Positions 2,304 to 54,360 of a DNA stretch of 64,000 nt are shown here, in pieces. Every line of letters begins with the position of its first letter. Position 1 is the first letter of the stretch. The DNA is from Halosegnis longus (lineage in GTDB: Archaea; Halobacteriota; Halobacteria; Halobacteriales; Haloarculaceae). The position numbers were made by a program, and so were the translations under genes. The stretch lies in contig NZ_QKNW01000001.1 of NCBI RefSeq assembly GCF_009663395.1, positions 310,001-374,000 of the forward strand, written 5' to 3'. The notes beneath the pieces were generated by a model that was given only the letters and a program-made list of their open reading frames with translations, had not been told where the DNA came from and made no database searches.

Positions 2304-3278
2304 CTACAGCGACAGCCCGCGAATCTCGACGCCGTCGCCTTCGCGCACGGTGCCGATGACGCGGCCGTCCGTCGCGTCGGCGACGCGCTCGGCGTCGGGC
2401 TCGGGCAGCGCCGCGACGAAGCCCGTCCCCATGTTGAACGTGCGGTGCATCTCCGCGTCGCTCACGTTGCCACGCTCCCGGACGAACTCGAAGACCGGGT
2501 GTGGCTCGAACGCGTCGGTCACGTCGTACTCGTGGTCGCCCATCCGCGAGAGGTTACTCCAGCCGCCCCCGGTGATGTGAGCACAGGCGTGGGTCTCGGC
2601 GTCGTGGAGCGTGGACAGGAGGTCGGTGTAGATGCGCGTCGGCTCGAGCAGCGCCTCGCCGACGGTGTCGTAACCGTCGTACGGGAACGGGTCGTCGTAG
2701 CTGCCGCCGTCGCGGGTCGCCGCCTCGCGAGCGAGCGTCAGCCCGTTCGAGTGGATGCCCGAGGACTCCCAGCCGACGAGCGCGTCGCCGACCTGCGCCT
2801 CGCCGGCGAACACCTCGGCTTCGGTCGCCAGCCCGGCACACGTCCCCGCGAGGTCGAGTCCCTTCACGACCTCGGGCATGACGGCCGTCTCGCCGCCGAT
2901 GAGTGCCATCTCGGCCCGGCGTGCACCCTCGCTGAGTCCCTCGCCCACCTGCTCGGCGAAGCGCTCGTCCGGCTCGTCGACGGCGAGATAATCGACGAAC
3001 GCGACGGGCGTGACTCCGGCGGCGGCGAGGTCGTTCACGTTCATCGCGATACAGTCGATACCGACCGTGGAGTAGTCGCCGAGCGCCTCGGCGACGAGCA
3101 GTTTCGTCCCGACGCCGTCGGTCGCGAGCGCGAGATACCGGTCCTCGCCGATGGGGACCATCCCGGCGTAGTCGCCCTCGAACTCGCCGACTGCGCCGAC
3201 CAGGGCGGCCGTCGCCGCCTCGCTCGCCTCGATATCGACCCCCGACTCCGCGTACGTGAGTTCCTCCTCGTCGGTCAT
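2304..3278 (-). CDS. purM: Phosphoribosylformylglycinamidine cyclo-ligase
   Basis: AIR synthetase, step five of purine synthesis: FGAM plus ATP gives aminoimidazole ribonucleotide. The protein has 324 residues and starts MTDEEELTYAESGVDI. It shows the PurM signature blocks: ATDGVGTKLLVAEAL near residue 52, GIDCIAMNVNDLAAAG near 73, GGETAVMPE near 130, and the C-terminal NMGTGFVAALP. A start seven codons upstream exists, but the chosen ATG matches the family N-terminus. No other purine genes are adjacent except a PurD-like ATP-grasp far away at 50,275. Confidence 0.95.
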   Translation of the reverse strand: MTDEEELTYAESGVDIEASEAATAALVGAVGEFEGDYAGMVPIGEDRYLALATDGVGTKLLVAEALGDYSTVGIDCIAMNVNDLAAAGVTPVAFVDYLAVDEPDERFAEQVGEGLSEGARRAEMALIGGETAVMPEVVKGLDLAGTCAGLATEAEVFAGEAQVGDALVGWESSGIHSNGLTLAREAATRDGGSYDDPFPYDGYDTVGEALLEPTRIYTDLLSTLHDAETHACAHITGGGWSNLSRMGDHEYDVTDAFEPHPVFEFVRERGNVSDAEMHRTFNMGTGFVAALPEPDAERVADATDGRVIGTVREGDGVEIRGLSL

Positions 3279-35683: not shown

Positions 35684-35697
35684 TTAGGCCGGCCGAA
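35684..35697. promoter_or_regulatory. Iron box 1 (DtxR-type operator)
   Basis: TTAGGCCGGCCGAA, a 14-bp near-palindrome of form TTxGGC-N2-GCCxAA, upstream of the TATA box of the siderophore-binding gene. It matches the half-site of DtxR/SirR-family (Idr) operators known in haloarchaea and actinobacteria. Confidence 0.6.
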
Positions 35698-35719
35698 AAA
35701 CCACAACGGTTTTATCTAG

Positions 35720-35733
35720 TTAGGCGGGCCAAA
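35720..35733. promoter_or_regulatory. Iron box 2 (DtxR-type operator)
   Basis: TTAGGCGGGCCAAA, the same 14-bp pattern, 36 bases after box 1. Together they flank the TATA box (TTTTAT at 35709-35714), and this copy ends five bases before the ATG, so binding would block initiation. This is classic iron-dependent repression. Confidence 0.6.
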
Positions 35734-35737
35734 AAGT

Positions 35738-36898
35738 ATGGACCAGACGGACATCGTGTCGCGACGGACACTACTGGGAACGGGAGCGGCGACGGCCGCC
35801 GGGCTGCTCGCCGGCTGTAGCGGACGATCCAGCGGTGGGACACAGACGGACGAGTCGGCGACCGACGCAGCGGAACCGACGGCGACCGCTACGCCCGAAC
35901 AGCACTCGGTGACGATGGCGCCGGTCGGAACCGTCGAGTTCGACGAGGTTCCGGAGCGCTGGGTGCCGTTCACGGGCGATTACGCCGACATGGGAGTCGC
36001 GCTCGGGCAGGCAGACGGGCTGGCAGGTATCGGGGTGCCGGCTCGCTACGGCTCACATCTCTACGAGGAACTGCCGGGTGTGTCGGTCGACACCGACGCC
36101 ATGACCGCCCTCTACAGCGAGGGGACCGACAAGGAGACGTTCTACAGCATCGACGCCGACGTGCACGTCATCGACCCGAACTTCGCCATCAATCGGCTCG
36201 GCTGGAGTCAGGGCGACGTGGACGAACTCGCGGACAACGTCGGCCCGTTCGTCGGCAACACCGGCTTCACGCACGTCTACGACTGGCACGACGACTACCG
36301 CTACTACTCCATGTACGAGACGCTGGAGGTGCTGGCGGAGCTGTTCGACGAGCGCGCTCGCTACGAGGCCTTCGCCGCCTACCACGACGAGATACTCGCC
36401 GACGTGGAGTCCCGGCTCCCCGAAGCGCGCCCAGATATCGCCCTGTTGTATCCAGCGGGCGTCCCGCCGGAGGGCTTCTACCCGTATCTGGTCGGCGAGG
36501 GGACCACCTCGAAGCAGTGGCGCGACCTCGGCGTGGGCGACGCGCTCGCGGCCGACGGGATTACCGACGCACAGGCCGGCGGGGGCACCATCGACTTCGA
36601 GACGCTGCTTGATATCGACCCCGACGCGCTCGCGATTCGGCTCCAGGGTGAGGTCTCCGAGACGTACTTCGACGAGGAGATTCGCACTCCCCTCGAAGAG
36701 CACGACGTGGCGAGTGACCTCACGGCCGTCCAGAACGACCGCGTCATCTACGCCGGACTCACCTACCAGGGACCGATTATCCACCTGTTCCAACTCGAAG
36801 CCGCGGCACAGGGGCTGTACCCCGAGGAGTTCGGCGGCGAACAGCTGTTCGACCGCGAGCGCGTCGCCGACATCGTGACGGGAGAGTTCGATGGCTGA
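35738..36898 (+). CDS. Iron-siderophore ABC transporter substrate-binding lipoprotein
   Basis: 386 residues. VSRRTLLGTGAATAAGLLAGC is a twin-Arg signal with lipobox, followed by a Thr/Glu/Ala linker. The rest resembles FecB/BtuF-type binding proteins (class III): VPERWVPFTGDYADMGVALGQAD, a Tyr/Asp-rich ligand region (YDWHDDYRYYSMYETL), and a C-terminal helix pair (FDRERVADIVTG). No permease or ATPase is adjacent, so they must be elsewhere. Two iron boxes flank its TATA. Its stop overlaps the next gene by eight bases. Confidence 0.85.
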   Translation: MDQTDIVSRRTLLGTGAATAAGLLAGCSGRSSGGTQTDESATDAAEPTATATPEQHSVTMAPVGTVEFDEVPERWVPFTGDYADMGVALGQADGLAGIGVPARYGSHLYEELPGVSVDTDAMTALYSEGTDKETFYSIDADVHVIDPNFAINRLGWSQGDVDELADNVGPFVGNTGFTHVYDWHDDYRYYSMYETLEVLAELFDERARYEAFAAYHDEILADVESRLPEARPDIALLYPAGVPPEGFYPYLVGEGTTSKQWRDLGVGDALAADGITDAQAGGGTIDFETLLDIDPDALAIRLQGEVSETYFDEEIRTPLEEHDVASDLTAVQNDRVIYAGLTYQGPIIHLFQLEAAAQGLYPEEFGGEQLFDRERVADIVTGEFDG

Positions 36899-52717: not shown

Positions 52718-52739
52718 GCCTAAGTTTAGGCTTACCTAA
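52718..52739. promoter_or_regulatory. Iron box before the GMC oxidoreductase
   Basis: TTAGGCTTACCTAA at 52726-52739 is close to the DtxR operator core. Overlapping it, GCCTAA (52718-52723) and TTAGGC (52726-52731) form a second inverted pair, so three half-sites are spaced by 8 bases. It lies 20-41 bases before the GTG at 52759, over the core promoter, so iron-dependent repression of the GMC gene is predicted. Bases 52566-52717 hold nothing else I can support. Confidence 0.65.
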
Positions 52740-52758
52740 TCAGCGCCGTGAGCAGACG

Positions 52759-54360
52759 GTGAGTGACACCGAGGTGTGCGTCGTCGGCGCGGGGCCGGCC
52801 GGCGCGCTCGTGGCGAACAGGCTGGCGAGCGCCGGCCACGACGTGACGATACTGGAGGCCGGTCCCCGGTTCGAGGAGCGCGACACGGAGCGGATGGAGC
52901 AGGCGCTTCGCCCGGGGCTGTCGGACCTCGGCGTCTGGGGGATGGGCGGCCCCCGGGACGCCTTCTCCACGACCGGGCGATTCTACCCGCTGAACAGCAC
53001 GCGCGTGAAGGGCGTCGGCGGCTCGACGAACCACTGGCAGGGGATGGTGTACCGACTCCACGAGGCCGACTTCGCCGGCGAGAACAACGGCCCGGCGTGG
53101 CCAATCTCGTACGACGACCTCCGGCCGTACTATCTCGCCGCGGAGCGAGCTATCGGCGTCGCGGGCGACTCGGAGAATCCGTACGCGCCTCCCCGCGAGG
53201 AACCGCATCCGATGGGCGCGTTTCCGCCCTCCTACTCGGACTCGCTGTTCGCCGAGGGGTGCCAGCAGGTCGGCGTCACGACCCACTCGGTCGGGAACGC
53301 GCGCAACTCCGAGGCGTACGACGACCGGGCGGCGTGTGTCGGCTACGGCACCTGCAAGCCGGTGTGTCCCTCGGGAGCGCGGTACGACGCCACCCACACG
53401 ATTGCTGCCGCCGAGGAACGCGGCGTCGAGGTCATCGCGAACGCGCCGGTCCAGCGGCTCGACACCGACGCGTCGGGCGAGCAGGTGACCCGCGCCGTCT
53501 ACGTCCGGGAGGGTAGCGAGCGCGAACTGACGGCCGACCGGTTCGTGCTCGCGGCCGGCGGCATCGAGATTCCGCGGCTCCTCCTGCTGTCGGCCGACGA
53601 CAGCCACCCGGACGGGTTGGCGAACGGCTCCGGTGCCGTCGGGCGCTACTTCCACGAACACGTCTTCGCCGGCACGGGCGGGCGCATCGACGAGCCGACC
53701 CGCCAGAACCACGTCGGGTTCATCACCTCCGAGAGCCACCAGTTCTACGACGAACCCGGCGCGGGCACGGAGACGATTCCGGACAGCGACGAGCCGCTCG
53801 CCCCGTTCAAACTGGAGTTTCTCAACTACGGCGGACCGTCCGGCACCGGACAGGCTATCGTTCGCCGTGCGCTTTCCAGCGATAGCTGGGGCGACGACCT
53901 CCTCGCGGAGTTGCGCGAGGGCTACGGGAATCAGTTAGCGATGGGTGGGCTCGTCGGCCAGCCACCGCGTGCCGAGAACCGCATCCGGCTGGACGAGGGG
54001 ACGACGGACGACCACGGAAACCCAGTCCCCGAAATCCAGTGGACGCTCGATGAGACGACGAAACGGACGATTCGCCGCGCGACCGAAATCCAACGCCACA
54101 TCTTCGAGGCGGTGGGCGCGCGCATCGAGTGGCAGACGACGCCCGAGACGACCGGCCCGGCCGCCCACCACATGGGAACCACCCGGATGAGTAGCGACCC
54201 CGAGTCGGGCGTCGTCCGTCCCGACTGCCGGACCCACGAGGTGTCGAATCTGTGGGTCGCCTCGTCGTCGGTGTTCCCGAACGGCGGGGCGTTGAATCCG
54301 ACGCTCACCATCGCCGCGCTCGCACTGTTGTGTGCGGATTCGGTCGCCGAAAGTTTGTGA
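52759..54360 (+). CDS. GMC oxidoreductase with [3Fe-4S]-type Cys motif
   Basis: 533 residues from GTG. FAD loop VCVVGAGPAGALVANRLA near 6, GVGGSTNHWQGM near 85, catalytic His region AHHMGTTRM near 470 and NPTLTIAALAL near the end. Cys193, Cys199 and Cys203 (C-x5-C-x3-C in AACVGYGTCKPVCPSG) match the [3Fe-4S] ligands of bacterial FAD-glucose dehydrogenase large subunits, which pass electrons to a cytochrome. No Tat signal is present and no small subunit is adjacent. An iron box covers the promoter. Substrate unknown (sugar or alcohol). Confidence 0.85.
   Translation: MSDTEVCVVGAGPAGALVANRLASAGHDVTILEAGPRFEERDTERMEQALRPGLSDLGVWGMGGPRDAFSTTGRFYPLNSTRVKGVGGSTNHWQGMVYRLHEADFAGENNGPAWPISYDDLRPYYLAAERAIGVAGDSENPYAPPREEPHPMGAFPPSYSDSLFAEGCQQVGVTTHSVGNARNSEAYDDRAACVGYGTCKPVCPSGARYDATHTIAAAEERGVEVIANAPVQRLDTDASGEQVTRAVYVREGSERELTADRFVLAAGGIEIPRLLLLSADDSHPDGLANGSGAVGRYFHEHVFAGTGGRIDEPTRQNHVGFITSESHQFYDEPGAGTETIPDSDEPLAPFKLEFLNYGGPSGTGQAIVRRALSSDSWGDDLLAELREGYGNQLAMGGLVGQPPRAENRIRLDEGTTDDHGNPVPEIQWTLDETTKRTIRRATEIQRHIFEAVGARIEWQTTPETTGPAAHHMGTTRMSSDPESGVVRPDCRTHEVSNLWVASSSVFPNGGALNPTLTIAALALLCADSVAESL

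Follow-up and report, generated by a model that had tools for sequence, protein, structure and literature searches.

An iron box before a haloarchaeal GMC dehydrogenase gene and its possible part in ferric uptake

Introduction

The DNA considered here is a 64-kb stretch (the window; C1:310001-374000) of the 2.77 Mb genome of a haloarchaeon close to Halosegnis, in which the gene for a GMC-type dehydrogenase with a predicted iron-sulfur motif stands behind a DtxR-type iron box. The locus raises the question of what an enzyme of this kind might do for a cell that appears to control its production by iron. A sequence-only reading of the window had offered two possible answers, an oxidation tied to siderophore synthesis and an iron-sparing switch. 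We consider both here from the relatives of the gene, its partners in the genome, and its distribution across the order.

Results

The iron box and its conservation among homologues

52719..52739, + strand: DtxR-type iron box, third half-site plus palindrome (exact palindrome, conserved before homologues)
52759..54360, + strand: large (catalytic) subunit of a GMC-type FAD dehydrogenase; 533 aa, starting with GTG (Pfam, phmmer and fold match)

The window contains the palindrome TTAGGCTTACCTAA once, at 52726-52739 (+ strand), and the GTG start at 52759 follows 19 bp past it. An extra half-site, CCTAA (52719-52723), precedes the palindrome; TTAGG and CCTAA pentamers number just 8 in the 64 kb, and three of these fall inside the 21 bp of the box. 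Positions 52721-52739 match the DtxR/IdeR 19-mer consensus at 16 of 19 bases, with 0.01 such matches expected per shuffle. Haloarchaeal promoters are usually leaderless, and from this we infer that the box overlies the expected core promoter. Across the genome the exact pattern TTAGGN4CCTAA occurs six times, compared with 0.68 expected from base composition. Sites with one mismatch number 21, and a reversed control pattern is commoner (31); one-mismatch boxes alone were therefore rejected as evidence, and only exact or conserved boxes are counted.

Conservation was followed in 76 homologous loci, 42 of them named and the window's own included. In 63 of the 76 an exact box stands no more than 250 bp from whichever gene of the pair comes first; with duplicates removed, one is present in 59 of the 70 upstream regions that remain, compared with none of 2000 shuffled regions. 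Its first base is mostly 21-25 bp ahead of the small-subunit start in these homologues, and the third half-site is weakly conserved. The 11 regions that lack an exact box comprise two decayed sites (L019, L021), a one-mismatch site (L046), a cut contig (L094), a cyanobacterial locus (L107) and six paralogues of 49-58% identity (L097-L100, L102, L105). In a tree containing 67 of the 70 homologues, every intact box falls within one 61-row clade (support 100/99), and the six boxless paralogues lie outside it. These paralogues retain the cysteine triad described below, and the box is therefore the mark of one orthologue rather than of the enzyme type. The box and third half-site that the sequence-only reading had placed before this gene are thus present, and predicted DtxR-type (iron) control gains strong support from the conservation of the box and from the tree.

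The paralogues, unboxed but with the same triad and a small subunit nearby, form a natural comparison group for the iron-boxed enzyme. A different situation is seen in L019 and L021 (about 939-970), near relatives from the same genus as the window species, which have lost the palindrome while keeping the small and large genes as a pair. The small subunit is placed otherwise in the window species, and the gene seems to have been relocated within one genus.

The catalytic subunit groups by sequence and predicted fold with FAD/[3Fe-4S] enzymes

53335..53367, + strand: Cys193, Cys199 and Cys203, predicted [3Fe-4S] ligand triad (alignment)
54166..54297, + strand: GMC active-site region, His470/471 and Asn513 (conservation in homologues)

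The 533-aa open reading frame carries the Pfam domains GMC_oxred_C/N, and its closest named relative is from Halosegnis rubeus (95%). The best PDB matches by phmmer are FAD-glucose dehydrogenases (FAD-GDH; 8hdd and 6a2u, E 3e-71), fructose dehydrogenase also being matched, and the predicted model superimposes on the folds of both enzymes with TM 0.81-0.84. All nine top fold matches belong to the FAD/[3Fe-4S] GMC group, and the next group follows after a gap from 7e-43 to 3e-27. The kinship with iron-sulfur FAD-glucose dehydrogenases proposed earlier is borne out by these matches.

The earlier claim of a Cys193-x5-Cys199-x3-Cys203 motif also holds. The three cysteines align with those of the B. 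cepacia FAD-GDH, which we take to be the residues holding its [3Fe-4S] cluster, and with those of fructose dehydrogenase. They are retained in 69 of 70 homologues, the lone exception being a cyanobacterial match of 26% identity, and are present in 24/24 sequences of the large-subunit alignment A2. The model is unreliable at residues 38-93 and 196-202, and since pLDDT falls below 50 in the latter segment, which is the cysteine loop, it is uninformative on the cluster. His470 is found in 70/70 homologues and Asn513 in 67/70; together with His471 these are presumably the GMC active-site residues. An iron-sparing switch, the second of the two earlier suggestions, is unlikely, since the predicted cluster would itself consume iron: the enzyme is probably iron-requiring, and its production is predicted for times of iron shortage.

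A candidate small subunit encoded 1.9 Mb away

In relatives of the window's gene, a small protein with a twin-arginine start is often encoded directly upstream. The window's genome contains exactly one PF13618 gene (C1:2271892-2272431), 1.9 Mb from the GMC gene; a one-mismatch box precedes it by about 12 bp. Its match to Gluconate_2-dh3 is weak but above threshold (29.6 versus 23.4 bits), and an R-R-D Tat motif is present in 24/24 of the small-subunit sequences aligned. The top match of the predicted model is the small subunit of fructose dehydrogenase (9jqa_B; Z 5.1 over 97 residues, runner-up 2.2); a Foldseek search with the model gave no significant match, and neither did a search of the sequence against the PDB return one. 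The search covered 23 genomes with no small subunit next to the GMC gene and found one elsewhere in each; linkage in relatives suggests that the distant gene supplies the partner of the window's large subunit.

The search for partners in the rest of the genome, which the sequence-only reading had recommended, thus yielded a candidate small subunit but no cytochrome c partner, since no PF00034 match above the cut-off was found genome-wide. For this reason the enzyme is classed, by sequence, as a relative of a catalytic/small-subunit pair rather than of the full three-subunit dehydrogenase.

Two other observations concern the small subunit. Another GMC gene of this genome (C1:1917087, L183) was rejected as its partner, as it resembles the choline-dehydrogenase type and has no box with up to two mismatches in the surrounding 5.5 kb. 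The small-subunit gene is matched only in part in L083 (5366-5956) and L145 (7425-7950), perhaps through a frameshift or a draft-assembly error.

The resemblance to the B. cepacia FAD-GDH (alpha/gamma/beta; 6a2u, 8hdd) and to the Gluconobacter fructose dehydrogenase (7w2j, 8jej) extends to catalytic-subunit sequence, fold, cysteine spacing and the Tat small subunit. The haloarchaeal system differs from both in the cytochrome c subunit gene, which our search did not find, in the iron box, and in the linkage of its genes to ferric transport and glycosylation. The account in PMC9727119 describes the bacterial small subunit as having a hitch-hiker role, with Tat export of the large subunit, and reports a disulfide between alpha-Cys213 and the small subunit. 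Here, in contrast, the position of alpha-Cys213 is occupied by Val194, and the haloarchaeal small subunit has no conserved cysteine.

The small subunit lies among ferric transport and glycosyltransferase genes

In the window's genome the small-subunit gene sits inside a cluster that encodes an FbpA/HitA-type ferric ABC transporter together with three glycosyltransferase-type genes. Two of the latter, RGP and PMT, are Pfam assignments; the third, GT2, is a dolichyl-phosphate hexose transferase by the NCBIfam cut-off (383.9 versus 375 bits). The binding protein (SBP) matches FbpA/HitA-like ferric-binding proteins with E 1e-45, and permease and ATPase genes lie beside its gene, as in FbpABC/HitABC. 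Unlike those systems, the haloarchaeal set is embedded with RGP, PMT, the dolichyl-phosphate hexose transferase and the dehydrogenase subunits.

This split arrangement, in which the small subunit is found among RGP, ferric binding-protein, permease, ATPase and PMT-type genes and mostly GT2 as well, recurs in 21/21 loci, drawn from the window's genome and 20 of the 22 other genomes that lack an adjacent small subunit; the exceptions are an undetected binding protein in L134 and an undetected ATPase in L135. A compact arrangement unites the small and large subunits with several cluster genes in 5 of the 42 named loci (L087, L088, L093, L095, L096). Among the 103 genomes for which both positions are listed, 37 place GMC within 12 kb of RGP. 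The compact cluster is seen in 20/20 loci from these 37 genomes, loci that were chosen because GMC lies within 12 kb of RGP, with the ATPase undetected in some.

Exact boxes are distributed unevenly over the cluster. Of the loci scored, 39 of 41 have such a box before RGP and 32 of 43 have one before SBP, for which one further locus was too short to score. The small subunit has an exact box in 21/24 compact and 2/21 split loci, and GT2 in 15/22 compact and 0/16 split loci, a one-mismatch box being present before GT2 in 16/16 of the split loci. No exact box was found upstream of PMT (0/45 loci) or of the ATPase (0/29). No recurrent extra gene, and in particular none for a known electron acceptor such as halocyanin, was recognised in the cluster across 45 loci.

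The linked GT2 invites comparison with haloarchaeal dolichyl-phosphate glycosylation (HVO_1613, AepG), which it resembles in passing the dolichyl-phosphate hexose transferase cut-off. HVO_1613 is reported, in part of PMC9943897, not to be involved in N-glycosylation, and that part of the account, in which the word "iron" does not occur, mentions no iron link, unlike the cluster described here.

At C1:2278482-2278522 (L060 16983-17023), two exact boxes lie between divergent genes for RGP and an MFS transporter. The MFS protein might act as an exporter in this system.

Co-occurrence across the order

GMC is found in 213 and RGP in 217 of 293 genomes of the order. Both are present in 208 genomes, GMC only in 5, RGP only in 9 and neither in 71 (p=2e-51, a value that is overstated because the genomes are related and are not independent events). 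The IucA/IucC siderophore synthetase, taken as a control, occurs in 88/293 genomes and is independent of GMC (60/293 with both, p=0.26).

The first of the two earlier suggestions, an oxidation tied to siderophore synthesis, therefore divides into two parts. A link to iron acquisition is supported, in the form of the FbpA/HitA-type ABC transporter and the glycosyltransferases. Siderophore synthesis does not: it is rejected for the window's genome, where IucA/IucC has 0 matches, and is unsupported across the order.

Discussion

A proposed role in ferric uptake

From the features that can be read in the sequences, namely the conserved boxes, the enzyme family, the cysteine triad, the small-subunit Tat motif, the gene linkage and the co-occurrence, we would predict an iron response, export, a cluster and, as substrate, a sugar that the linked glycosyltransferases make or display. 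In this proposal an iron-loaded DtxR-family repressor would occupy the box at the GMC core promoter, and iron starvation would lead to production of both subunits, the transporter and the glycosyltransferases. The product of the window's gene would be the catalytic part of a dehydrogenase that uses flavin and an iron-sulfur cluster to oxidise a sugar (or an alcohol), and the Tat signal of the small subunit would take it across the membrane in folded form. The exported enzyme would then act within a conserved haloarchaeal system composed of the FbpA/HitA-type ABC transporter, the RGP-like protein, the dolichyl-phosphate hexose transferase and the PMT-type glycosyltransferase. We regard it as reasonably probable that ferric uptake in haloarchaea involves, as one of its core components, a Tat-exported sugar dehydrogenase under iron repression.

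The chemical step is the weakest link in this scheme. We tentatively suggest that a surface or secreted sugar may be converted to an acid or keto ligand that keeps Fe(III) available to the binding protein, the cluster handing the electrons on to some acceptor that is not cytochrome c. We prefer the Fe(III)-ligand view on two grounds: the importer linked to the dehydrogenase belongs to the Fe(III) type, and the genes alongside serve to make or move sugars. In its fullest form, which we regard as doubtful, the idea becomes one of glycan-based iron gathering, in which an RGP/dolichyl-phosphate hexose/PMT route would display a sugar, the Tat-exported FAD/[3Fe-4S] dehydrogenase would oxidise it to an Fe(III) ligand, and the FbpA/HitA-type transporter would collect the iron.

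The main rival to the Fe(III)-ligand view is reductive iron assimilation, in which the exported dehydrogenase would oxidise an external sugar and use its cluster to relay the electrons to Fe(III) chelates, freeing iron for uptake, and the glycosyltransferases would serve a glycoprotein transporter. The iron boxes and the linkage to a ferric transporter are consistent with this scheme, and the absence of an above-cut-off cytochrome c match in the genome leaves open how electrons exit. However, the binding protein encoded in the cluster is an Fe(III)-type one with no need of prior reduction, and the scheme gives the linkage to glycan genes no direct part to play. We also know of no ferric reductase activity in the FAD/[3Fe-4S] GMC family, and on balance we consider reductive assimilation rather unlikely.

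The enzyme might instead belong to metabolic remodelling, as an iron-regulated respiratory sugar dehydrogenase that feeds halocyanin or quinone during starvation and has no part in uptake, the linkage reflecting co-regulation only. Members of its family are respiratory sugar dehydrogenases, and GMC is not near RGP in 66 of the 103 genomes with both positions listed. This explanation is nevertheless unlikely, given that the small subunit in the split arrangement is embedded among transporter and glycosyltransferase genes and that both genes are present in 208 of the 222 genomes having either GMC or RGP. It is very improbable that the box responds to manganese or another metal, or is a non-working site, so that the GMC gene escapes iron control: DtxR-type boxes can also serve manganese regulators, and one-mismatch boxes are no commoner than the control pattern, but like boxes precede FbpA/HitA-like and Peripla_BP_2/FecCD-type transporter genes in the genome, and the exact palindrome is kept in 59/70 upstream regions.

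A place for the dehydrogenase in ferric uptake would bear on how most haloarchaea obtain iron, as the dehydrogenase (213 genomes) and the linked RGP (217) far outnumber IucA/IucC (88) among the 293 genomes. A predicted iron-switched, sugar-oxidising enzyme that shares a conserved set with a ferric importer and sugar-attaching enzymes suggests a new mode of iron gathering and, if the glycan-based scheme is true, species without hydroxamate siderophores would own a siderophore-like device. The parts are of known kinds, and neither their combination nor any iron-regulated archaeal GMC enzyme was recognised in the literature searched, although published archaeal DtxR regulons may list the gene. 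To our knowledge, no other archaeal GMC dehydrogenase has been connected with acquiring iron, and this one would be the first. Against the proposed role, the main text of an iron-starvation proteome paper on Haloferax volcanii mentions no GMC enzyme; the lost palindromes of L019 and L021 and the lack of a recurring electron-acceptor gene in the cluster also count against it. The analysis singles out a specific, widespread and box-marked gene set that is open to direct test.

The regulator and the wider regulon

35684..35733, + strand: second iron-box site, a pair of one-mismatch boxes spaced 36 bp apart ahead of a lipoprotein gene
35738-36898: substrate-binding lipoprotein gene (Pfam Peripla_BP_2)

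The genome has DtxR-family genes, one of which encodes DNA-binding, dimerisation and FeoA domains. In this regulator, and in the palindromic box before transporter genes, the system resembles the haloarchaeal DtxR-family iron regulons (Idr1/Idr2, SirR), which Leyn and Rodionov reportedly described in 2015. The lipoprotein gene in the window is predicted to belong to the same regulon as the GMC gene. The 36-bp pairing of boxes before it is seen again at C1:384763/384799 and C1:391382/391418.

Further boxes lie at L062. A one-mismatch box precedes a short DtxR-like gene (2349-2791), and two more one-mismatch boxes precede the adjoining NifU-like gene (2773-3187), an arrangement that may mean that the DtxR-like gene regulates itself and that the regulon extends to iron-sulfur assembly.
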